Shown piece after piece: positions 170 through 10,683 of a DNA stretch of 23,715 bases. Numbering within the stretch: the stretch's first letter is position 1; every line of letters begins with the position of its first letter. The notes below the pieces were generated by a model. That model was not told where the DNA came from. It worked only from the letters and a program-made list of their open reading frames with translations, and did not search any database. The DNA comes from a virus. The DNA lies in the IMG/VR virus record IMGVR_UViG_3300033553_000792, positions 1 through 23,715 of that record; one strand, written 5' to 3'. The translations under genes were made by a program, and so were the position numbers.

Positions 170-198
170 ATTATAGCACGAACATATGTTCGTGTCAT
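170..198 (-). promoter_or_regulatory. Sigma-A promoter for the 40-residue peptide
   Basis: On the minus strand the -35 element is ATGACA (193-198, five of six consensus bases), the spacer is exactly 17 bases, and the -10 element is a perfect TATAAT (170-175). It points at the 40-residue frame at 123-1. The spacer is filled by a LexA operator, so repression by occlusion of RNA polymerase is expected. Confidence 0.8.
177..194. promoter_or_regulatory. LexA (SOS, Cheo-type) operator
   Basis: The core CGAACATATGTTCG (179-192) matches the Gram-positive LexA/DinR consensus CGAAC-N4-GTTCG exactly, and the perfect palindrome extends to 18 bases (177-194). It sits between the -35 and -10 elements of a near-consensus promoter. 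Seen directly: palindrome and placement. Known: this motif is the SOS box of Bacillus and Clostridium relatives. Inferred: DNA damage derepresses the gene to its left. Confidence 0.85.
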
Positions 199-218
199 TA
201 TTTTTAAATATAAAATTT

Positions 219-275
219 ATAGAGCGTCTGGCTTCTGATCAGAATGTTGTGGTTTCAAATCATACTGCGTGTGCA
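219..275 (+). other. Degenerate tRNA-Arg(UCU) 3' part, candidate phage attachment site
   Basis: Read on the plus strand this aligns with the part of a tRNA from the end of the D arm onward. The end of the D stem (GAGC, 222-225) is followed by an anticodon arm with a 5-bp stem (227-231 with 239-243) and a seven-base loop CTTCTGA carrying anticodon TCT (234-236). Next come a 5-base variable region and a T arm with loop TTCAAAT (254-260). Two of five T-stem pairs are broken and there is no 5' acceptor or D-loop half, so it is not a functional tRNA. Temperate phages often integrate in the 3' part of tRNA genes and leave such copies at the far end. Its place between the lysogenic exclusion gene and a LexA-controlled gene fits an attL/attR core. 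Confidence 0.5.
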
Positions 276-280
276 AAAGA

Positions 281-325
281 AAAAAAGCTGTAAAACCTTT
301 TTTCTATAATGGTTTACAGCTTTTT
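281..325. terminator. Bidirectional rho-independent terminator
   Basis: The arms AGCTGTAAAACC (286-297) and GGTTTACAGCT (311-321) pair with one extra A in the left arm. They are flanked by an A-run on the left and a T-run on the right, so the hairpin is followed by U-rich RNA on either strand. It lies just downstream of the Ltp-domain gene (minus strand) and can end its transcript while insulating it from the region to the left. Confidence 0.7.
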
Positions 326-384
326 GTTGTTTTCATTTCTTTGTTGTTTTTCTTTTTTTATCGTTTTTTGACCTAAATCTTATA

Positions 385-1074
385 TTATAATCCTGTTGAA
401 TCAGTTCCATATGTTGCTTGTTCCACTGTGAATCCTTCATATATTAATTGATCAATTAGTCCGCTTCTAGAAAAAGAAGTATAATCCAAATAGTCTTGTG
501 CGCTTTTTTCTGCTTGTTCCATCCAATCAGCTCCGGAATTATCAACACCATATATGGCATCTTCTTCATCGAAACCTTCGTACTTTAATTGCTCTATTAA
601 ACCGCTTCGTGAGAAAGAAGTATAATTCAAATAGCTTATAGCGCTACGCAAAGCATTTTTTTGAGCTACTGTCTCACTAGAAGTTTCTATGCTAGTAACT
701 TGCGGTGCTTCTACTGGTTGTTCAGATACAGGCTCGCTTACTGTTTCTACTACAATTACTTCTGTATCAATTGCTTCCGTTTCAGTTTGTTCAGGTAAAT
801 CTTCTTCAGCAGGTTCTGTTTGCACCGGATCTGCTTTTTCAATACTAATCGTTTCACCGTTTGCTTCTTCATTGGCTAAAGTATCTGTACTGGTATCACC
901 TTTTTCACCTAAATTTCCTAACATACCTAGTACAATAAAAACCATTAAAACCATAAACCACGTTCTTTTGTAGATTGGCTGTTTGTTAACTGCTCCACAA
1001 CTTGGACATGTTATCTTCCCCTTAGCAGATATTTCATGATCACATGACTTGCATTTTCTTAATTTCTTGTCCAT
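385..1074 (-). CDS. Zinc-ribbon membrane protein with two Ltp superinfection-exclusion domains
   Basis: The 229-residue protein has three parts. An N-terminal zinc ribbon has Cys8-x2-Cys11 and Cys23-x2-Cys26. One transmembrane segment follows at about residues 38-55, then a long acidic linker (about 58-138) rich in Glu, Thr and Val. Two near-identical C-terminal repeats (about 141-182 and 189-229) share the motif YTSFSRSGLI with a following YEGF. These repeats match the host-cell-surface Ltp family, known from streptococcal phage TP-J34, where Ltp blocks DNA entry of related phages. There the protein is a lipoprotein; here there is no lipobox, and anchoring is by the membrane helix, with the zinc ribbon likely inside the cell and the repeats outside. 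It starts after AGGAGT, has its own promoter, and lies beyond the late terminators, as expected for a gene expressed in the lysogen. Exclusion is inferred from family and position. Confidence 0.8.
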   Translation of the reverse strand: MDKKLRKCKSCDHEISAKGKITCPSCGAVNKQPIYKRTWFMVLMVFIVLGMLGNLGEKGDTSTDTLANEEANGETISIEKADPVQTEPAEEDLPEQTETEAIDTEVIVVETVSEPVSEQPVEAPQVTSIETSSETVAQKNALRSAISYLNYTSFSRSGLIEQLKYEGFDEEDAIYGVDNSGADWMEQAEKSAQDYLDYTSFSRSGLIDQLIYEGFTVEQATYGTDSTGL

Positions 1075-1117
1075 TATTCAATACTCCTCTCCCATTTTTA
1101 TATATAGTTACCTATTA

Positions 1118-1146
1118 ATTTTATAGTATTTTTTCATCAATCACAA
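1118..1146 (-). promoter_or_regulatory. Putative sigma-A promoter of the Ltp-domain gene
   Basis: On the minus strand TTGTGA (1141-1146) and TAAAAT (1118-1123) are separated by 17 bases, about 45 bases before the ATG at 1074. The elements match four of six and five of six consensus bases. Because two hairpin terminators lie upstream, an own promoter is needed for expression in the lysogen. Confidence 0.5.
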
Positions 1147-1216
1147 TATACGTTTAGGACCTTTTAACTGTCATAAATCTCAAGGATAGATTTTTAACTT
1201 GATTTCATTATAAAAA

Positions 1217-1246
1217 TAAGGTCCTTGAAATTAATCAAGGACCTTA
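1217..1246 (-). terminator. Rho-independent terminator of the late operon
   Basis: A perfect 11-bp stem (TAAGGTCCTTG at 1217-1227 with CAAGGACCTTA at 1236-1246) has an 8-base loop. On the minus strand it is followed at once by TTTTTAT, and there is no T-run on the plus side, so it ends leftward transcription coming from the endolysin gene. Confidence 0.85.
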
Positions 1247-1259
1247 AGTGGAGAGTCAG

Positions 1260-1278
1260 ATATAATCGGGGATTATAT
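1260..1278. repeat. Short perfect dyad between the two terminators
   Basis: ATATAATC (1260-1267), GGG, GATTATAT (1271-1278) form perfect 8-base arms, and the outer bases GTCA and TGAC extend the symmetry with a two-base offset. No T-run follows on either strand. It could be an operator upstream of the exclusion gene or a hairpin extending the termination region. The function is not known. Confidence 0.4.
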
Positions 1279-1346
1279 GACTTTTATTAGTATAATGTTT
1301 TTTATCGCATTTTTCAACTATTTTTTTCATCTTTCAAGTAACTAAA

Positions 1347-1378
1347 AAGGGGTATCCTCAATTTTAGACAGACCCCTT
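1347..1378 (-). terminator. Terminator-like hairpin just after the endolysin
   Basis: The 7-bp GC-rich stem AAGGGGT/ACCCCTT (1347-1353 with 1372-1378) has an 18-base loop. On the minus strand it runs directly into T residues. It starts ten bases after the endolysin stop. The large loop makes it weaker than the hairpin at 1217-1246, with which it is in tandem. Confidence 0.55.
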
Positions 1379-1388
1379 ATAGTTTTAT

Positions 1389-1811
1389 CTACTTGGTTCT
1401 TTTATCTTCAAACCATGTTCCTCTTTTTCGACTATCCATGTGCATAAAAGTATCGTACATTCCAAACCCTCTACCGCCTAGTAATATCCATTTTCTATAG
1501 CAATTAAATAGATATTCGTTTTGGCGTTCTTTTGGCATAGTGAAGAATATCGAAGGTAAGGCTATGTCTGTTGCTACACCTATCAGGTGTTGGCTGTTTG
1601 ATGCGCCGCCTTCATTTTTGTTGTGTATTACGTCACGGTACCAACTATTGACTGGCATGGCTCTCTTGTACCAGTTTCTAAACTCTTGTAAACGTTGAGC
1701 GTGTTCTATTACATCCGGATTTATGAGTATTTCTCCGTTACCTTTACTTTTTATTTCAAATAGCCAAAAGTTTTCTGTTATTCTTCCGTCCGATATTTTT
1801 GCATTAAGCAT
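1389..1811 (-). CDS. Endolysin, M15-family zinc peptidase
   Basis: The 140-residue protein has the zinc peptidase M15A signature. The segment GGASNSQHLIGVATD gives ligands His75 and Asp82, and the C-terminal FMHMD gives His124, followed by Arg residues and RGTWF as in the family. Known members cleave stem-peptide bonds in peptidoglycan (D-Ala-D-Ala carboxypeptidase or L-Ala-D-Glu endopeptidase type), and phage copies act as endolysins. No signal peptide is visible, which fits release through the holin encoded immediately upstream. There is no separate wall-binding domain, so it is a minimal catalytic lysin. It is the last gene of the late operon, followed by two terminators. Confidence 0.85.
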   Translation of the reverse strand: MLNAKISDGRITENFWLFEIKSKGNGEILINPDVIEHAQRLQEFRNWYKRAMPVNSWYRDVIHNKNEGGASNSQHLIGVATDIALPSIFFTMPKERQNEYLFNCYRKWILLGGRGFGMYDTFMHMDSRKRGTWFEDKRTK

Positions 1812-1826
1812 TGTTACACGCTCCTT

Positions 1827-2138
1827 TTATTTTGCTTGATCTATAGGCCGCTTCACTGTTATTTGCTGTATGCTCTCATGACCAAACACGGCTAAAGCTG
1901 CTATGATTGTTCCCTGTATGATTGCCGAGACTATTACTGTAGCTATAAATCCTTCAGCTAAGATGATGGCCAGGTATAACACGGTAATGATAATGCTAGT
2001 AAACAAAAGAATGAATGGTATCTTCCACTCCCCAGTGAACCAAGGTGCTTTTTTGAGAAACAGGCCAAGGGCCCATATAAATACAATCAAGATTAATAAC
2101 TCCGGTCTTATAAAATCTAATACTACTTTCCAATCCAT
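1827..2138 (-). CDS. Holin with three membrane segments
   Basis: The 103-residue protein has three strongly hydrophobic stretches at about residues 12-28, 40-61 and 64-85 and a charged C-terminal tail. The start and spacing resemble the clostridial Hol44-type holins of holin superfamily V, with PELL in the first helix and IIQG in the third. Holins oligomerise in the cytoplasmic membrane and set the time of lysis by opening it to the endolysin. The gene lies between an XhlA-like membrane protein and the M15 endolysin, completing a lysis cassette. The exact holin family is an inference from pattern only. Confidence 0.75.
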   Translation of the reverse strand: MDWKVVLDFIRPELLILIVFIWALGLFLKKAPWFTGEWKIPFILLFTSIIITVLYLAIILAEGFIATVIVSAIIQGTIIAALAVFGHESIQQITVKRPIDQAK

Positions 2139-2149
2139 TTTTTATCCTC

Positions 2150-2530
2150 CTAATTTGCAATCAACGCCCACACTACCCCTGCAATACCAACAGTAATGAG
2201 ACCAATTAATATATTACGTACTTGATTGATAAGTTGCTCTGCTCTTTTTCCATCCTTTTTTTCCAAGTCATCAATCCTCTCATGTAGTCTTAAGACAGTG
2301 TCTTTAGTCTCCATTTTTGCCTGTATATGATCTATTTTTTCCTCGTGTTGTTTTTGAGTCTCAACCATAATACTTAAATCTTTAGCTTGACTGGTAAATG
2401 CCATAGATAGATTGTGTACAGACTCAACTAACTTTTCCATGTTATCTAGCCTAAGCTTATTTGATTTAGATCGTGACTCGTTGTCTGCTATTAATCTTAT
2501 GTGCTCGTGTACCATATTGTCGTGGTCCAT
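2150..2530 (-). CDS. XhlA-like coiled-coil membrane protein of the lysis cassette
   Basis: The 126-residue protein is mostly amphipathic helix (about 10-100, rich in Glu, Lys, Leu and His). It ends with a single transmembrane segment at about 105-124 (ILIGLITVGIAGVVWALIA). This layout matches haemolysin XhlA-type proteins, which in PBSX-like phages sit before the holin and endolysin genes and help lysis. It is longer than typical XhlA proteins (70-90 residues), mainly in the coiled coil. It follows the protease gene by 17 bases and precedes the holin by 12. The start ATG at 2530 has GGGAGGTGAAGT upstream. Confidence 0.7.
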   Translation of the reverse strand: MDHDNMVHEHIRLIADNESRSKSNKLRLDNMEKLVESVHNLSMAFTSQAKDLSIMVETQKQHEEKIDHIQAKMETKDTVLRLHERIDDLEKKDGKRAEQLINQVRNILIGLITVGIAGVVWALIAN

Positions 2531-2546
2531 ACTTCACCTCCCGGAG

Positions 2547-3497
2547 TCATAGCTTAATAGTAAACTCTTTCTTTGCTGCATCCCACTTCACTTCTCCACC
2601 AAATGCTTCTCCTATTGCCCTAAGTGGTACCAGAGTTCTTTTGTTCGAGTCAATGATGGCTGCCGTGTCCATGATTACTTTCTTTCCGTCTACCTTAAGA
2701 TGTTTATCACCTATTACACCTTTTATTTCCATATACATCCTTTCTGGCAAGGTAAATAATCCATGCCCACTCTTATTGTCAAATTCCGGTTCTAGCAAGT
2801 CTATACAGTTTATGTGTATTAAATCTCTTGCTTGCTGCCTGGTTAATTTTTTGCCTTTACGGCTCATGTATAGCCAAAGCATGCCTGCAGCTACTGGTCC
2901 TGATGTTGATGTACCATTAAACCAATGTAATTTGGAGTAATCAGCAGTTACTGGGAACCATATGTCTGTGAAGGCAACTGCATCAAGTCCTTCACCACCG
3001 TTTGAGTAGTCTGCTACCTGATTACGATTATCTTCAAATGCTCCAATTGATATTATCCAAGGTAATTGTGATGGGTAGCTTATAATATTTTCATTTCCCT
3101 TGTTGCCAGACGATGCTATTACGATGATATCATGTTCTTCAAGGCGCTCAATTTCACTGTCTGTCGGACCACTAAAACTACAATTCACAACGGCTATATC
3201 TTTTTTGTTTTCTATAATCCAGTCTACTATTTCTTTTTTCTCTGAGCTAAAAAAATTAAAGCTTACTATTCTGGCGTTAGGTATTACTTGTCTAGCTACA
3301 GCACATACATTTGTGTTATGACCACTCTTACCATCTAAGCGGAAGTTATCCAGGACTATATCTACGTTGTCATGAGGCCTGGGCTTACCATTACTATCTA
3401 GGATTACATACATGCCAGGGTCTTTCTTTATGGGTAGATCTTGATATTTTGATATTCGTGCTTGGTCAAATTCAGCCTTATTTTCTTTTATCATCAT
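2547..3497 (-). CDS. Subtilisin-like (S8) serine protease with C-terminal copper-amine-oxidase-N domain
   Basis: The 316-residue protein carries a recognisable subtilase triad. The Asp is probably Asp34 in YVILDSNG (Asp50 is an alternative). His60 lies in GHNTNV, Asn132 in the oxyanion-site motif SSGNKG, and Ser197 in NGTSTSGP. The last 60 or so residues (about 260-316) match the copper amine oxidase N-like domain found on many clostridial surface proteins, including the hallmark RTLVPLRAIGEAFGGEVKWD. No signal peptide or propeptide is seen. The gene lies between the tail-tip protein and the lysis genes, so the product may ride on the virion and cut host surface protein, process a tail protein, or aid lysis. 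Enzyme class is well supported; target and location are inferred. It starts after AGGAGGAGG; a second ATG one codon later is equally possible. Confidence 0.85.
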   Translation of the reverse strand: MMIKENKAEFDQARISKYQDLPIKKDPGMYVILDSNGKPRPHDNVDIVLDNFRLDGKSGHNTNVCAVARQVIPNARIVSFNFFSSEKKEIVDWIIENKKDIAVVNCSFSGPTDSEIERLEEHDIIVIASSGNKGNENIISYPSQLPWIISIGAFEDNRNQVADYSNGGEGLDAVAFTDIWFPVTADYSKLHWFNGTSTSGPVAAGMLWLYMSRKGKKLTRQQARDLIHINCIDLLEPEFDNKSGHGLFTLPERMYMEIKGVIGDKHLKVDGKKVIMDTAAIIDSNKRTLVPLRAIGEAFGGEVKWDAAKKEFTIKL

Positions 3498-3509
3498 AAC
3501 CTCCTCCTG

Positions 3510-5705
3510 TTATCTTGTTGTTTCTGCATTTGCATTTTCAAGCTTTGATTTTAGTTTTTCTGTTAGTGTTGGAAGTTTGTTTCCAAATACAGCCCTTAAC
3601 TTAAATCCATCCGGTTCATAAATCTCAATGACTTCTGTTATTCTTGCATCCATGGACAAGCCCCATTTTTTGTTTTGAATGGTTACTATATCACCCAGAG
3701 ACCAATCTATACCGTATTTAAATGTTCCGGTGTTTGATATCTCACATTCAAATGCTTCAGCTGCTATTAATTCTGCTAGCTTTTGTTCTCCTCTAGCAAT
3801 TAACCGTGCTTCAATTTCTTCTGGTGACGGTGGCGGTTCTTCTTCTCCGGCACCTACGTCTCTTGCGTCTACAAACTCTTCATAACGATTTAGACCGCTT
3901 TCGCTTCCCACTTCTACTATCACACGGTCCGTTCCTTCACCTTGTCCTGCTACATAAGCAACATTGACGTGACCTATTAAAGAATCGGTGTACTCCTGAC
4001 TTTCTACATTATCAAACTCAACCGAGAATATAACCGGTGGATTAATCTCTTGTCCTGAAGTTAGGTCTTTTCCTTCATATACATCAAATACCCACTTTTC
4101 AAGTTCAATGTCTATGCTTATTTGCCATCCAATACCGGTTGTTCTTGAAATTGATTCAAGTTCTTCATCTAGTTTTTTAAGTCTAGTCTGCCAAGGTAAT
4201 GATGGGCCTCTTCCTAAGTCTTCTTTATTGATTAACATAGAAAAAACCCTATTAGGGTTTGATGGGTTGATACAATTATGATCAATATAGGTTTTCATGA
4301 TTGTCTCTGCATTTGATGTTAATCTGTCATATGCTTGTCCAGTAGGTGGAATGGTCTGACGTTGTTTTGTGATGCCTGATAGTGTATACCCTTTTATCGT
4401 TAGGACTTCATCCTCTCCTTCAAGAAAGTGACGGTGCTTTATGATGTGTACATTTTTAAGATCAGAACCAACTAATAATAAGTTATTTTTCTGAAGTAAC
4501 TCTGTGCCCTTTTTGTTTAGATTGATGATTAGTTCAAATTCTCCCGGTGCATGATATCTGTATGTCGGATAAAATGACTCGTAATCATCAATTTCATCTA
4601 GTAGTTCAAGCCCCGGACTTAGAATTCTGATGGGCTTAAAAGGGGTCACTTCTGTTTCTTTTTCAAGATTTAATCCTGTGTCTGGTTCTGGTTCTGGTTC
4701 TGGTTCTGGCTCTGGTTCTGGCTCTGGTTCGGGTTCAGTACTAGGAAAAACAGCCGTTATAATTCCTGAATCAGTTTCATTTGTTGCGGTTGCCCCTGAA
4801 ACAGTAAAGAAGTCTGCTGTTACTCCAGTTAAGGTGAATCCTTCTTTAGGTGTTAAATTGATTATTGCTGTATATACTGTGTCTGCGTCAAACATGGCCA
4901 TTTCTGGAATCCACGAGACAGTACCTGTATATTGATCTGTTTCAGTTATGGTTGTTACCGGCGTTTCATTTTTTACCGGTGCTGTTATTCCTGGTATCGA
5001 TGCTATATCAATTGTTGTATCAACTGCCGAATCCTCAAATGGAATATCTGTTGAATAAGTTACTCCACCATTTAGCGTGCCGTGCATGTCGTTACCTGAA
5101 TAGTCTAGGGCATCATTGTTGAATGGCCAGTAAGCAACTAGGTGTGGATCAGCAAGCTCTGTTACACTAAGTGACCTGTTTTCCATATCCAGAGCTTCTG
5201 CCTCAGATATTACCTTACTCCATATGCTCATTTCATCTAGAAAACCATTGACTCTTCTATCACTGGAAAACGGTATTCTTGCACCTGCTATTAAGTCTTT
5301 CGCATTTGCAAGGCTAAAGTTCGATGCTGAGAAAGTATCTGTAATAACGCCACCTATTAAAAATTTAACGGTTGTACCAGATCTTGTAACTATTACATAT
5401 TTCCAAACACTGCCGTTCATAATTATTCCCGAACTGGACATAAGCGTCGTGCCATCATAATGGAATGACAGTCTATGATCATCGTAATAACCATTAAGCA
5501 TAAAGCCCCAGTCACCGGTTGCAAATGTTGACTTTATAAGAATAGGCTGGTGATTATTAGAAGATACAACCGTGTTTCTACATTTGATTCTAGCAACAAT
5601 CGAGAAATCACCTGTACCGATGTTGTTAACAGGCGCCGGATTACCAAAGTTAACATAACCATCAATGCCGTCGAGCTCTAGAGAATGTGTATTAAATATA
5701 CTCAT
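3510..5705 (-). CDS. Tail-tip Gp37-like protein fused to LamG and Ig-like domains
   Basis: The 731-residue protein shows four parts. Residues about 8-222 form a LamG/concanavalin-A-like domain (LDGIDGYVNFG at the start, GFLDEMSIWSK and VAYWPFNNDALDYSG near the end). Residues about 235-322 resemble an Ig-like repeat of clostridial surface proteins (YTGTVSW, LTPKEGFTLTGV). Then come nine Glu-Pro pairs (324-341). Residues about 355-731 match the siphovirus ReqiPepy6 Gp37-like tail family, with the start ILSPGLELLDEIDDYESF. Gp37-like proteins normally occupy the tail-associated (Tal) position at the tail tip. The N-terminal fusion suggests carbohydrate or surface binding carried on the tip by a stiff Glu-Pro spacer. 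It starts two bases after the stop of the 34-residue gene, with AAGGTGA upstream. Fold calls are from motifs seen by eye. Confidence 0.8.
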   Translation of the reverse strand: MSIFNTHSLELDGIDGYVNFGNPAPVNNIGTGDFSIVARIKCRNTVVSSNNHQPILIKSTFATGDWGFMLNGYYDDHRLSFHYDGTTLMSSSGIIMNGSVWKYVIVTRSGTTVKFLIGGVITDTFSASNFSLANAKDLIAGARIPFSSDRRVNGFLDEMSIWSKVISEAEALDMENRSLSVTELADPHLVAYWPFNNDALDYSGNDMHGTLNGGVTYSTDIPFEDSAVDTTIDIASIPGITAPVKNETPVTTITETDQYTGTVSWIPEMAMFDADTVYTAIINLTPKEGFTLTGVTADFFTVSGATATNETDSGIITAVFPSTEPEPEPEPEPEPEPEPEPDTGLNLEKETEVTPFKPIRILSPGLELLDEIDDYESFYPTYRYHAPGEFELIINLNKKGTELLQKNNLLLVGSDLKNVHIIKHRHFLEGEDEVLTIKGYTLSGITKQRQTIPPTGQAYDRLTSNAETIMKTYIDHNCINPSNPNRVFSMLINKEDLGRGPSLPWQTRLKKLDEELESISRTTGIGWQISIDIELEKWVFDVYEGKDLTSGQEINPPVIFSVEFDNVESQEYTDSLIGHVNVAYVAGQGEGTDRVIVEVGSESGLNRYEEFVDARDVGAGEEEPPPSPEEIEARLIARGEQKLAELIAAEAFECEISNTGTFKYGIDWSLGDIVTIQNKKWGLSMDARITEVIEIYEPDGFKLRAVFGNKLPTLTEKLKSKLENANAETTR
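4683..4736 (-). repeat. Nine six-base repeats coding a Glu-Pro linker
   Basis: Nine in-frame copies of a hexamer (mostly GAACCA on the coding strand, with GAGCCA and GAACCC variants) encode (Glu-Pro)9 between the Ig-like domain and the Gp37-like part. The near-identical units could change in number by slippage in steps of two residues without breaking the frame. Confidence 0.9.
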
Positions 5706-5812: not shown

Positions 5813-6050
5813 TCATCATCACCCCACTTAATAGTTCAGCAAGTTCCATGATTGCCTCATCTTGAGCATCTAGTTTTTCTTGCATAAGTTCTTTTTCAGT
5901 TGGTGGACTTGGTATTGGTGCATCTTCTGTCCATTCATCTAATAAGTTACTCTCTCCATCATAATGTTTAAAGTAAACTATGTTGTCAATAATTTCTTTC
6001 GTTGTGTATTCTAAAAGTTTTCCATCTTTGAATATTTCGTTTTTATCCAT
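5805..6050 (-). CDS. Small tail-region protein, XkdW-like position
   Basis: The 81-residue protein has an N-terminal part rich in charged and aromatic residues (YFKHYDGESNLLDEW) and a C-terminal helix of the form LDAQDEAIMELAELLSG, a pattern common at the end of small proteins coded between baseplate and tail-tip genes in Firmicute phages. Its ATG overlaps the stop of the preceding baseplate gene (TAATG), and AAGGTGG precedes it. I do not know its role; by position it may be a minor tail or assembly component. Confidence 0.65.
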   Translation of the reverse strand: MDKNEIFKDGKLLEYTTKEIIDNIVYFKHYDGESNLLDEWTEDAPIPSPPTEKELMQEKLDAQDEAIMELAELLSGVMMNG

Positions 6051-7243
6051 TAAGAAACCACCTTCCTTAGTTCTATAGGGCCTACTCTGGATATAGTAGA
6101 CTCAAAGGATACTGCTGGGGCTGGGTCAGTGGGGGCACCTGCGGACTGATAGGCTAGATAAGCATAAGTAGTCTGCACGTCGTCCCTTGTAACTGATATA
6201 GGAGCAGTAAAACCCAAACTACTATCAGCATCTATAGCGGTGAATACGACATTGACACCTGAGGTGTTTGTAGCAGCTATAAAATACCAACCTGACTCTA
6301 GGGTAAAGTTTGCTAACCCTATCTTATCACCCGTCGTACCAGTGTCCAATACAGGTAAATCCACAATCTTCACTGTGGGTAGCATGTTTTCGCTCTTATA
6401 TATAGCTCCTCGTAGATTTGATCCCGCTGCACTAACAGGTACTTTTAAGCCATAAGCATCAAAAGAGGTTTCTTTGGATATATATATTGGAGTCCAGTTT
6501 GTGACTCCAGCCATCACAGTACCATTACCAGTCCTATAACACCACCACCCCGGCAAGCCCCATAGACCTTTTAACCCTGGCATGTTCTCGTGTAATTCTT
6601 CCCTCAAGTTTTTAAGACCCGATGAATTAACAATCGCCATTAATCCAGCATCTGCCTCAATTGCCGATATTTCTCCTACTGTAAGTTGGTCTTTAAAGTG
6701 AACATACATCCAAGCGTCCATAGGTACTTGTCCTTCTGGATACCATGCTGGTTTAGTTTGATATCTGGCATATTCTCTTAAGTCCGTGATTTCTGATGTT
6801 TCAATGAAGCTTTTACCCGCTATTATTAAAACTTCTGCTAGTTCTATCTCATAAACATCTATGTTTTGTGTTAAAGTCGGTGCCGTTCCACCTGGTGTTC
6901 CAGTAAGCACAAATGCTTTAATGTATCTATTTTCTACATTTCTATCCATTCTTAAGACAACTAAATCGATTCGGTTTTGAGATGGATCCGGAAGCTCATG
7001 ACTTAATTCTAAGGCTTCATCGTTTTCATAATACTTCCCTTTTATGAAAGCTTTTCCTGTAGATAAGATTGTTTTCATTTGGGATCCGTGTCCGGTAACT
7101 TCTAAAGAGTTTAGTTGTTCAGCAAATACACCTGTTGTAACGAGCGTATCAAAATAATCGTCGTATTGTTCTACATCGTATTCTAAATCTGGTGTTCCCT
7201 GCGGTGTAAGCACTGCATTAAAAAACCTTGATTTTTCTGCCAT
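6050..7243 (-). CDS. Baseplate / receptor-binding tail protein
   Basis: The N-terminal half (from MAEKSRFFNAVL through about residue 165) matches the baseplate-associated structural proteins of Gram-positive siphoviruses: a jelly-roll-like region with RIDLVVLRMD, then APTLTQNIDVYEIELAEVLI and ITDLREYA. The C-terminal part (about 240-397) starts with a WWCYRTGNGTVMAGVTNWTP segment and looks like a beta-rich carbohydrate-binding tail domain. I chose the ATG at 7243 because AGGAGGTGC lies six bases before it; the frame stays open for 27 more codons but only inside the distal tail gene. It follows the distal tail protein gene, as expected for a part that docks on it. Receptor binding is inferred. 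Confidence 0.75.
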   Translation of the reverse strand: MAEKSRFFNAVLTPQGTPDLEYDVEQYDDYFDTLVTTGVFAEQLNSLEVTGHGSQMKTILSTGKAFIKGKYYENDEALELSHELPDPSQNRIDLVVLRMDRNVENRYIKAFVLTGTPGGTAPTLTQNIDVYEIELAEVLIIAGKSFIETSEITDLREYARYQTKPAWYPEGQVPMDAWMYVHFKDQLTVGEISAIEADAGLMAIVNSSGLKNLREELHENMPGLKGLWGLPGWWCYRTGNGTVMAGVTNWTPIYISKETSFDAYGLKVPVSAAGSNLRGAIYKSENMLPTVKIVDLPVLDTGTTGDKIGLANFTLESGWYFIAATNTSGVNVVFTAIDADSSLGFTAPISVTRDDVQTTYAYLAYQSAGAPTDPAPAVSFESTISRVGPIELRKVVS

Positions 7244-7253
7244 AAGGCACCTC

Positions 7254-8120
7254 CTACATTCCTGAGAATCTATTCTTCCATGTGATATTAACTTTGGCCT
7301 GATTTTCACCGGCATCCGCTTCATATGATATTGTATTTTGACCTGGTTCCAAGCTCCAAAACTTACTATCTAAATCTATATAGTTCATAGCGTTTGTGGT
7401 TATTCCATCACCATCTATAAGCTGTACTGATTTTTTCCCATATTCGGTATTAATACTTAGTCTCTGACCTTCTAGCAAATCACGTTTTACTCGTATAAAT
7501 TCATCTGTGGTCACATTTTTTATTTTGGGATTTGTGGATGGACCATAAAAATCAATATGCACTGGTGCGTCAACGTCTCCATTATTAGTTACTGCTATTG
7601 TTTTGCCTTGCATTGCAAAGCTCATGGGAAATGATAACGGAAAGCTTAATCCACCAACCCATGCTGCCATTTCAGCGCTGTTACTTGTTGGGCTTATCCA
7701 AAGCGGATTAGGTGCAATGAGGTTGATTATGAAGTCTTGGTACTTAAAGCTTCTTGTTTTTTTGCTGAATATCGGAGCTTCTTCTACTTGGCACCTTATT
7801 TGCCCAACAACATCACCGTATTCATATTGAATCCAACCTCTTACTTTTTGCGTGAACACTTTAAGGAGTATGGCACGTTGTGCTGCCATCTCCTCTTTGG
7901 TATCACCTTTTATGGATCCAAATATTGCTAGCGGTCTATCTTTAAGAGTCACGCTTGATATTGTGGTACCGTCTTGACCCACCCCTTTTGTTTTGTTGAC
8001 ATTTGCGCTTAATCCATCTGCACCTTCAAATTTTTGAAGAAAAAATGGAAATGATTGTGTCATCTCTACGCTTTGGCCTTTGTCATTTTCGTAAATTAAT
8101 TTTTCATGTCTTCCTTCCAT
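7254..8120 (-). CDS. dit: Distal tail protein (Dit, Sipho_tail family)
   Basis: The 288-residue protein has features of the siphovirus distal tail family: an N-terminal segment with a reference to a tail-tube-like fold (FPFFLQKFEGADG, GQDGTTISSVTLKDRPLAIFGSI) and a beta-rich C-terminal galectin-like half with NNGDVDAPVHIDFYGP and a closing ITWKNRFSGM. Dit forms the hexameric hub linking the tail tube to the baseplate and tail-tip protein. The gene comes directly after the tape measure gene and before the baseplate protein, the canonical place. It starts with ATG after AGAGGTGA. Confidence 0.88.
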   Translation of the reverse strand: MEGRHEKLIYENDKGQSVEMTQSFPFFLQKFEGADGLSANVNKTKGVGQDGTTISSVTLKDRPLAIFGSIKGDTKEEMAAQRAILLKVFTQKVRGWIQYEYGDVVGQIRCQVEEAPIFSKKTRSFKYQDFIINLIAPNPLWISPTSNSAEMAAWVGGLSFPLSFPMSFAMQGKTIAVTNNGDVDAPVHIDFYGPSTNPKIKNVTTDEFIRVKRDLLEGQRLSINTEYGKKSVQLIDGDGITTNAMNYIDLDSKFWSLEPGQNTISYEADAGENQAKVNITWKNRFSGM

Positions 8121-8133
8121 TTTTTCACCTCTT

Positions 8134-10683
8134 TTAGAATGATAGTGCTAGTTTTTGACTTGCTTTTTGATTTTCTCTAGCTGTTTCAGATGGGCTCAGA
8201 GCTTTAGGGCTGTTGATGGTTATTTTTTGATTAATCTGTGTCTTGTACATTTCTGTTGCTACACTTGTTGTTACGCCTTTTTCTTGTGATATCTTATCAA
8301 TGGCTGATTTGTTGCCCGAGTAAAGAGCTGCATTCGCTTCCATAAAACTTGTATTTCCACCACTGAAGGTTTTGGATACCGTATTCCCTATGTCTTTTAC
8401 AGCTTCTCCAATACCGCCTATGGACGCTTTGATTCCTTCGATAAACCCGGCTATTAGATCTTTACCCCAATCTATCGCACTTTTGGCTAAGTCTGCAAAC
8501 CAACCACTAATGTTCTTTTTTAGTTCATCAAAGGATTCTGTTAAATTTGTCCAGGCATTACTAACGAGCGAGCCTAACCCAATCCACATATCAGACCACA
8601 TTGTTTTTATTGTCTCTGTAAATGTTGTCCACGCTCCACTAAATGTAGTTACTAATATGGTTAATAGATTGAGTATTATATCTCTAGCACCCACTAATAT
8701 TGCCCCTATTCCTGACCAAATACCTTCCCATATCTTACTTAGACCCTCACCCATGCGTTCCCAATCACCAGTAAGGAGTCCTATAAATACATCAAGTATT
8801 CCACTTATGATTGATAAGGCCGCTTCAATGAGTCCAGTTATGAGATCCCATGTTGCTTGGGCTATTGCTTTTAACTGTTCACTGTTCTCATTCCAAAACT
8901 CTCTTATCCTTTCAAGCTCTTTTTCTATGAAGCCTGTTATGAACGTGAGGGCCAGACTGAATATCTCTTTAATCTGTTCCCATAATTCTTTTACATTGTC
9001 TCTAAATTCTTCATTAGTGTTCCACATAGTGACCACTATTGCTATAAGTCCTGCGACGGCTGCTACTACTAATCCGATAGGTCCTGTTAATGCACCTATT
9101 ACAGCACTAAGGCCACCCGTTGCTCCCATCGCCGCTCCCATACCACTTACTAATGGCCCAATTAGGTTTGTTATTGCTCCAAGTCCTGTGGCCATTTTCC
9201 CTATGACAATTAGTGCTGGTCCTATGGCTGCCACTATACCGGCTATCATTACAATCATTTGCAATGTGTTTTCATCTAAAGATAATAGATATTCTGATAA
9301 GTCACTTATTTTTTCTGCAATCATTTCAACAATAGGGAGTAATACGTTGCCAAGTTCTATGGCTACGTTTTTTAATTTGTTAAATGCAATTCTTGCTTCT
9401 TCTGTTGGCGTTTGTAGCTTTTCGAAAGCCTCTTCTGTTGCTCCTGTAGAATTCTGCATTTTAACAACTTTGTCATTAAACTCATCTGCTCCATCTCCAA
9501 GTAGTGTTAATGCAGCTTTGGCCGCTTCCGCGCTTCCAAACATATCTCCAAGAGACATGTTGTTTTTCTTTGCGTCTTCATCTAGCAGCGCTAGGATGTC
9601 TCCTACTGACCTACCTTCTTCAACAAGTCCTTTGAATCCTTTTCCTGTTAATTCTTTTAAAGTATCATCCGTTTTACTTCCTGTTTTTCCAAGTTCATTA
9701 AACATGGAATTCATATAGGTTGTGGCTTCGGCTGATTTGATACCGTTTGAAGTCAATATTGCATATCCTGCGGCCACTTGTTCAAGCTCCACACTATTGG
9801 CTTTTGCTGTAGGGATTATTTTACCCATGGCTGCAGAAAGTTCTCCAACTGTGGTTTTGCCTTCGTTTTGTGTTTGAATTAAAACATCAGAAACTCTACT
9901 AACATCTTCTGATTCTAATTTGTATGCGTTCATGATTGTTGTTAGAAGGTCCAATGATTCTCCGGACTCTGCGAATCCTGCTTTTGCAAGTTTGTTGGAT
10001 TTTTCAAGGTATGCTATTGCATCTCCTGTGCTTTGTCCTGCTGATATCGCGTCATAAACGTTGTTTGCAATTTCATCAGCTGCTATGCCACTATCATTAG
10101 AAAGATTCATAATGGCATCTCTTAAATCTTCCAGCGGTACTTGAGTTGTATCTGCTATTGTGGATACCTTAGCTATAGCATCATCCACTTTACCACTCAT
10201 TAATGTTGCGGCTCCTCCGGCTCCTACTATGGCGCCTGTAATTGGCAACATCTTTTTTCCAGCCGTTTCTGCTTTCGAACCAAAATCTTTCATCTTGTCT
10301 GATGCATTCTGCCATTTCGAATTGACATCCTCTACTTGACTTTCAAGCTTTTTCAAGTCTTGTTCTGTCTGAACTACTTCTCTTTGAATGGCCCGGTATT
10401 GTTCTTCACCGACTTCTCCTCTTTCAAATTGCTGTTGTACTTGCCTTTCAGCTTCTTTTAAGGTATCTAGCTTGTTTTTTGTGTCGCCGACCGCATCGCC
10501 TAATAACTTTTGTTTTTGAGCGAGAAGTTCAGTATTTTTAGGATCTAATTTTAGCAGTCTTTCAACTTGCCTTAGTTCTGTTTGGGTTTCTTTTATGTTT
10601 TTATTTGTGTCTTTTAAGGCTTGTTGAAGCTTGGTGGTGTTGCCTCCAACTTCAATTGTTATACCTTTGATTTTGCCTGCCAT
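8134..10683 (-). CDS. Tail tape measure protein (TP901 type)
   Basis: The 849-residue protein begins with a long coiled coil (about 15-130, rich in Leu, Lys, Gln and Glu). A TP901-type core follows at about 150-440 (ADEIANNVYDAISAGQS, AVGYAIL-like and GKIIPTAKANSVELEQVA motifs). Then come Gly/Ala/Ile-rich hydrophobic segments (about 475-560) and a Trp-containing helical C-terminal region. Such proteins fill the tail tube, set its length and are ejected into the membrane during DNA entry. At about 1.5 angstroms per residue the tail would be near 125 nm. It is the largest gene of the window, directly after the G/GT chaperone genes as in most siphoviruses. Ltp-type exclusion proteins of other phages act on this protein, a relevant link to the exclusion gene at 385-1074. 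Confidence 0.92.
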   Translation of the reverse strand: MAGKIKGITIEVGGNTTKLQQALKDTNKNIKETQTELRQVERLLKLDPKNTELLAQKQKLLGDAVGDTKNKLDTLKEAERQVQQQFERGEVGEEQYRAIQREVVQTEQDLKKLESQVEDVNSKWQNASDKMKDFGSKAETAGKKMLPITGAIVGAGGAATLMSGKVDDAIAKVSTIADTTQVPLEDLRDAIMNLSNDSGIAADEIANNVYDAISAGQSTGDAIAYLEKSNKLAKAGFAESGESLDLLTTIMNAYKLESEDVSRVSDVLIQTQNEGKTTVGELSAAMGKIIPTAKANSVELEQVAAGYAILTSNGIKSAEATTYMNSMFNELGKTGSKTDDTLKELTGKGFKGLVEEGRSVGDILALLDEDAKKNNMSLGDMFGSAEAAKAALTLLGDGADEFNDKVVKMQNSTGATEEAFEKLQTPTEEARIAFNKLKNVAIELGNVLLPIVEMIAEKISDLSEYLLSLDENTLQMIVMIAGIVAAIGPALIVIGKMATGLGAITNLIGPLVSGMGAAMGATGGLSAVIGALTGPIGLVVAAVAGLIAIVVTMWNTNEEFRDNVKELWEQIKEIFSLALTFITGFIEKELERIREFWNENSEQLKAIAQATWDLITGLIEAALSIISGILDVFIGLLTGDWERMGEGLSKIWEGIWSGIGAILVGARDIILNLLTILVTTFSGAWTTFTETIKTMWSDMWIGLGSLVSNAWTNLTESFDELKKNISGWFADLAKSAIDWGKDLIAGFIEGIKASIGGIGEAVKDIGNTVSKTFSGGNTSFMEANAALYSGNKSAIDKISQEKGVTTSVATEMYKTQINQKITINSPKALSPSETARENQKASQKLALSF

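Follow-up and report, generated by a model that had tools for sequence, protein, structure and literature searches.

The minus-strand gene at positions 2547-3497 of the window, which is the whole 23,715-nucleotide stretch analysed here (a 23.7 kb IMG/VR virus record from a siphovirus of Bacillota), encodes a leaderless S8 subtilase that is probably a member of the phage lysis module and would act as a soluble, wall-held enzyme cutting an envelope protein during lysis. The basis for this reading is the intact catalytic residues, the predicted fold, the exchangeable gene block, the lysis-gene neighbours, the fusions to hydrolases and the envelope-type C-termini of the family. From these we infer that the gene is expressed late and that its product exits with the help of the holin, binds the wall and is an active protease, and we also infer its likely substrate.

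The list of open reading frames and the translation indicated a product of 316 aa on the minus strand, and the plus strand across 2547-3497 was riddled with stops. A strong ribosome-binding site, AGGAGGAGG (3508-3500, minus strand), lies 5' of the ATG, which is 12 bases past the end of the tail-tip stop codon. The subtilase gene is followed after 16 bases by the XhlA gene. The terminase, capsid and tail-tip proteins of the window were closest to those of Terrisporobacter, Lactobacillus and Paenibacillus phages.

Pfam Peptidase_S8 (PF00082) matched residues 65-246 (2760-3305, minus strand) at 1.4e-19, with a score of 71 bits against a curated cut-off of 21.8. The catalytic domain that was aligned with the relatives comprises residues 1-250. 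In this family alignment and in an alignment with 16 ordinary subtilases, Asp34 (codon 3396-3398), His60 (3318-3320), the oxyanion-hole Asn132 (3102-3104) and Ser197 in the motif NGTST (2907-2909), all on the minus strand, matched the Asp, His, Asn and Ser of the ordinary enzymes, giving the S8 order D-H-S together with the oxyanion Asn. All four residues were unaltered in the relative L002 (65% identical), and the comparison with this relative gave a dN/dS of about 0.08 at nearly saturated synonymous sites. The AlphaFold2 model, based on an alignment of 15 sequences, had a pLDDT of 87 and a pTM of 0.79, and placed D34 at a strand end and H60 and S197 at helix starts; the closest solved structures were of the subtilisin BPN' type (Foldseek 6e-16). 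By residues, profile and predicted fold, we assign the window protein to the S8 subtilases. It resembles subtilisin BPN' and other S8 subtilases in the Asp-His-Ser triad, the oxyanion Asn, the motif order and the predicted fold, but it differs in its identity of only ~22%, its short Asp-His segment, its C-terminal envelope domain, its phage lysis context and the lack of a signal peptide and an I9 propeptide.

No secretion leader was found in the window subtilase, as the best 12-residue hydropathy within the first 30 residues was -0.67, and hydropathy gave no membrane segment. The protein starts about 30 residues ahead of the catalytic Asp34, and the I9 propeptide is absent. The hallmark of intracellular subtilisins (ISP) is an N-terminal LIPY/F inhibitory extension, and this extension is also absent from the N-terminus MMIKENKAEFDQARISKYQDLPIKKDPGMY. 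At the other end, a Cu_amine_oxidN1 ('stalk') domain occupies residues 257-314 (2556-2729, minus strand; Pfam 4.5e-12, above the curated cut-off), and we presume from the sequence that it is an envelope or wall anchor. The protein is not a copper amine oxidase, since the catalytic topaquinone domain is absent and Pfam finds just the end of the N1 stalk domain. The preliminary description of a full S8 triad followed by a copper-amine-oxidase-N domain without a signal peptide thus agreed with Pfam, the alignments, the model and the hydropathy, and the strand is the minus strand.

The gene order in the window also bore out the placement between tail tip and lysis genes that had been proposed earlier. 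The tail-tip gene (Laminin_G_3 + Sipho_Gp37 by Pfam; 3510-5705) is followed by the subtilase gene and then by genes for an XhlA/hemolysin-like lysis accessory protein (2150-2530; phrog_937, 1.2e-5), a Hol44-type holin (Phage_holin_5_2; 1827-2138; Pfam 5.5e-11, phrog_1129) and a Peptidase_M15_3 endolysin (1389-1811; Pfam 7.2e-12, phrog_894), for which Pfam gave no wall-binding domain of its own. An Ltp-type superinfection-exclusion-like gene (385-1074; Pfam PF07553 3.3e-29, phrog_4980) forms the downstream flank, and all of these genes lie on the minus strand. Comparison with the sibling phage L081 showed that subtilase, XhlA, holin and M15 are swapped as one unit (about 1133-3510). The tail genes and the Ltp gene of the two phages were 75-84% identical (window 6621-9750 and 3511-4991 at 75-80% nucleotide identity, window 186-1132 at 84%), while window 1133-3510 had no match in L081 by blastn or tblastn. 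The breakpoints are the tail-tip stop codon and a point upstream of the Ltp gene. Because similarity to L081 breaks off at that stop codon, the protease travels together with XhlA, holin and M15. The preliminary description had called such proteases rare in siphovirus structural regions, and here the location was misplaced because the subtilase is part of the lysis block rather than the structural one.

In L081, the block is replaced by an Amidase_3+NAGPA endolysin, a 99-residue protein and an r1t-type holin. In the replacement endolysin (L081:6546-7904), Amidase_3 is joined to a NAGPA (phosphodiester glycosidase) domain, and by its sequence this protein is possibly another second-layer envelope enzyme within a lysis cassette. 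A peptidoglycan hydrolase combined with an enzyme for a different bond would fit the view that a second activity against the envelope is a feature of these cassettes.

A search of 50,697 annotated phage records gave no close member, with just four weak partial matches to the protease at 27-28% identity. IMG/VR contained one close relative, L002, which is 65% identical over the alignment, carries two stalk domains and belongs to an otherwise different 68 kb phage with the order tail gene, S8, small protein, M23 endolysin. The putative receptor-binding proteins of these otherwise different phages (L002:6730-7650 and window 6050-7324) looked alike by eye in their C-terminal parts, and there the protease and the tail-end genes may have been transferred jointly. 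Peptide-pattern searches from single proteins mostly found nothing. Most relatives came from a hand-made DNA motif for WH..G.TGKG, which was scanned in viral contigs regardless of context and hit 19 loci, comprising 14 clear members and two more that were the cut-off start of a member; a second DNA motif added L063. Profile searches of genomes gave the prophage members L013/L027, L014, L038, L035 and L039. As whole-protein profiles were swamped by Cu_amine_oxidN1 matches in host proteins, the S8 domain alone was used in the later searches. L012 was rejected as a member because it is an ordinary secreted subtilisin, and chromosomal or plasmid subtilases were likewise rejected.

About 25 relatives were obtained, and almost wherever the flank sufficed they lay beside or within holin, XhlA, BhlA or endolysin genes, with a lysis gene fused or a few genes away in nearly every case. 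The order of the window recurs in a phage-plasmid of Tepidibacter hydrothermalis, NZ_CP120734 (tail gene, S8+SLH, XhlA, holin, M15), whose S8 protein carries Gly instead of the catalytic Asp. In prophage L013/L027 the order is holin, S8+stalk, M23, and in L014 it is holin, S8+stalk, one ORF, M23, where the S8 gene has an in-frame TGA and only the gene order was used. L038 has S8, an XhlA-like protein, a small putative holin and an amidase; L049 and L053 have S8, BhlA and amidase; and L050 has XhlA and, further on, S8 followed by M23. A holin adjoins S8+Amidase_2+stalk in L035, precedes S8+Amidase_3+SLH in L039 and follows S8+glucosaminidase+SLH in L063. Because the motif scan that found most relatives ignored context, this neighbourhood is unlikely to be a selection effect. 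There were two exceptions: L028 (2539-3450, S8+stalk) showed no phage genes over the 20 kb surveyed and lies between a gene for a stalk-domain protein and a FeoB-like gene, and on the 3.8 kb contig L037 an M23 fragment is three ORFs away. The flanks of L040, L042, L047, L052 and L057 were cut off too near to judge the context. None of the 22 members tested had a signal-peptide-like hydrophobic core.

In six members, the S8 domain is fused to a peptidoglycan hydrolase, which is Amidase_2 in four (L035 with a stalk, L056 with SLH, and L041 and L045), Amidase_3 in one (L039) and glucosaminidase in one (L063), the last two with SLH. The fused state is scattered over the tree and needs six changes, and the stalk/SLH state needs five. 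The C-termini of the family are mostly envelope domains, and in relatives SLH sits where the window subtilase has its stalk domain. The tree placed 23 phage S8 domains on one side of a branch and 17 other subtilase domains on the other, with modest support (75/72). The window subtilase grouped with L002 (100/100) and next with the S8-Amidase_2-SLH protein L056 (99/92). The window subtilase itself contains no peptidoglycan hydrolase domain, with Pfam giving S8 and Cu_amine_oxidN1 only, but it has other endolysin-type traits, being a leaderless product of a lysis-cassette gene with a wall-binding-type domain by sequence. Taken together, the cassette exchange, the lysis neighbours of the relatives and the six hydrolase fusions favour progeny release at lysis among the three roles proposed in the preliminary description.

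We propose that the subtilase would be made late as a soluble, leaderless protein alongside the endolysin, accumulate in the cytoplasm like a canonical endolysin and cross the membrane once the holin opens. Against this model, a cytoplasmic subtilase would have to be kept from acting until the holin is triggered, and the analysis found neither an inhibitor nor a propeptide. After exit, the stalk domain may tether the enzyme to the cell envelope or wall, where the subtilase domain would cut envelope protein, most likely the S-layer or another surface protein bound to the wall. With peptidoglycan left to the M15 endolysin, progeny would then not be held back by the protein part of the envelope. 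Peptidoglycan stem peptides contain D-residues, and a subtilase is an unlikely cutter of them. By analogy, we favour an S-layer or S-layer-associated protein as the substrate, because SLH, the alternative domain at the stalk position, anchors many S-layer proteins, which bind secondary wall polymers through it (PMC12285257). It was also reported that an amidase-SLH endolysin binds cells via its SLH domain (PMC12285257) and that the wall-binding domain of a clostridial phage lysin is blocked by the S-layer from outside until this layer is stripped (PMC9368847). Of 299 genomes sampled in the phylum searched, 248 had SLH proteins, and with such proteins in 83-100% of the sampled genomes, host SLH counts are uninformative on an S-layer association.

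The gene order, the lack of a leader and the envelope domains would fit equally well with a protease that is freed at lysis and strips surface proteins off debris and neighbouring cells, leaving progeny untrapped in a neuraminidase-like manner, rather than one that helps to break the envelope. S-layer protein is reported to be a phage receptor in Clostridioides difficile (PMC9615553). The repeated fusions to peptidoglycan hydrolases, however, point to action at the wall in lysis more than to a diffusible enzyme, and we regard receptor or debris clearance as unlikely.

The position of the gene directly after the tail-tip gene could instead suggest a virion-associated protease that cuts a surface protein on entry or matures tail proteins, and a prodomain-bearing subtilase does occur among the baseplate and tail-fibre genes of Baoshanvirus phages. 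A tail or baseplate role is thus possible for other phage subtilases, but the Baoshanvirus protein fell outside the family in the tree. The window protease goes with the lysis genes at the L081 breakpoint, its relatives in L027, L014, L039 and L045 come after the holin and away from the tail genes, and fusion to endolysin domains speaks against a virion component as well. Nothing was found for this S8 family in support of the entry or tail-processing roles put forward earlier, and we consider them quite improbable. The Baoshanvirus case is a different subtilase, encoded between tail fibre and baseplate genes in staphylococcal phages (L073:3452-4546 in phage Golestan101, and L072).

The leaderless state of the window subtilase would also agree with a protease that works inside the cell, either activating lysis proteins or setting their timing, for example through endolysin maturation or inhibitor removal, or degrading host proteins late in infection, and both large Bacillus phages and a Moorella phage have intracellular-type subtilases. 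Those genes, however, are located in early or replication regions, where neither lysis neighbours nor envelope domains accompany them, and we rejected them as lysis-cassette cases because of these other gene contexts. SLH and stalk domains would moreover have no clear use in the cytoplasm, and we find this explanation highly doubtful.

Variation at the catalytic Asp suggests that some members of the family may have little or no proteolytic activity. The set D-H-N-S is complete in 13 members, that is, the window subtilase and 12 others, and Ser197 and Asn132 were present in every aligned member. In seven members of one clade (support 98/99; L035, L040, L041, L044, L046, L057 and L063), Glu replaces the catalytic Asp and the His, Asn and Ser are intact, so a Glu-His-Ser triad is possible. 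Three members of another clade (support 100/99; L010:7833-8834, L049:2066-2941 and L051:8669-9544) have Gly at this position and the serine motif THTSG. The dN/dS of the pair L049/L051 was 0.06, indicating purifying selection and therefore retention for some use even if activity is altered, and the Gly-clade proteins are probably maintained pseudo- or altered proteases. That the S8 domain serves, as a pseudo-protease, mainly to bind the wall or proteins and so helps to place the endolysin, as this Gly and Glu variation might suggest, is extremely improbable given the intact residues of the window protein and its 12 fellow members.

The S8 family, phage subtilases in other settings and the modular logic of endolysins were already known, and the combination and setting are new; no description of a subtilase within a lysis cassette or endolysin was found in the open-access literature searched. 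LysBT1, an amidase-SLH endolysin of a Brevibacillus prophage (PMC12285257), is a leaderless lysis enzyme with a C-terminal envelope domain like the window subtilase, and its amidase family and SLH domain are common to L056, but LysBT1 lacks a protease domain and the window subtilase lacks a peptidoglycan hydrolase domain. Gp42 of Brevibacillus phage Jimmer1 is tabulated as a 'subtilisin-like serine protease' with no function given (PMC4168068). Its gene comes four genes after a BhlA-holin-glucosaminidase lysis set, but the protein has a long N-terminal extension ahead of S8, carries no envelope domain and fell outside the family in the tree. The best viral predicted-structure match (1.2e-15) was A0A8S5T9E9 of Siphoviridae sp. 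ct0Wl9, a 350-aa 'S-layer homology domain' protein that is not named as a protease and that, judging from its predicted structure, probably represents a member of the S8-SLH type already in the databases. Phage tail sheath proteins also show a subtilase-like fold (PMC13118943), but one that has no triad and no relation to the window subtilase.

Gram-positive lysis is usually described as the work of a holin and a peptidoglycan hydrolase. Spanins and LysB-type auxiliary lysis proteins add a further step to lysis, directed at an envelope layer beyond peptidoglycan, namely the outer membrane or the mycolate layer. The window subtilase would provide an analogous step against a protein layer, but the proteins are unrelated, and the window subtilase is not a spanin, as it lacks a membrane segment and was modelled as a globular protease. 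A subtilase that recurs in lysis modules and is fused to varied hydrolases suggests that some phages must also handle envelope protein, and widens the modular repertoire of endolysins by an enzyme class that was not expected there. The S8 family thus suggests a so far undescribed phage-release step, the cutting of the protein part of the cell envelope, and makes the S-layer or another protein coat testable as a barrier to progeny release. More tentatively, and with somewhat less than even confidence, we suggest for Bacillota phages a dedicated protein-envelope-cutting lysis step in which a leaderless subtilase family, occurring either as free-standing wall-anchored proteins or as an additional catalytic domain within endolysins, may breach the S-layer or the coat of surface proteins, much as spanins do with the Gram-negative outer membrane.

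The two flanks of the lysis block showed further features. The tail-tip protein (3510-5705, minus strand) consists of an N-terminal LamG/lectin-like domain, a (PE)n linker and then the Sipho_Gp37 domain; its C-terminal part is 79% identical to that of L081, and the N-terminal part has no match there. The Ltp-like protein (385-1074, minus strand) combines two Ltp repeats with a membrane segment and an N-terminal stretch resembling a zinc ribbon, and a nearly identical protein follows the lysis cassette of L081.
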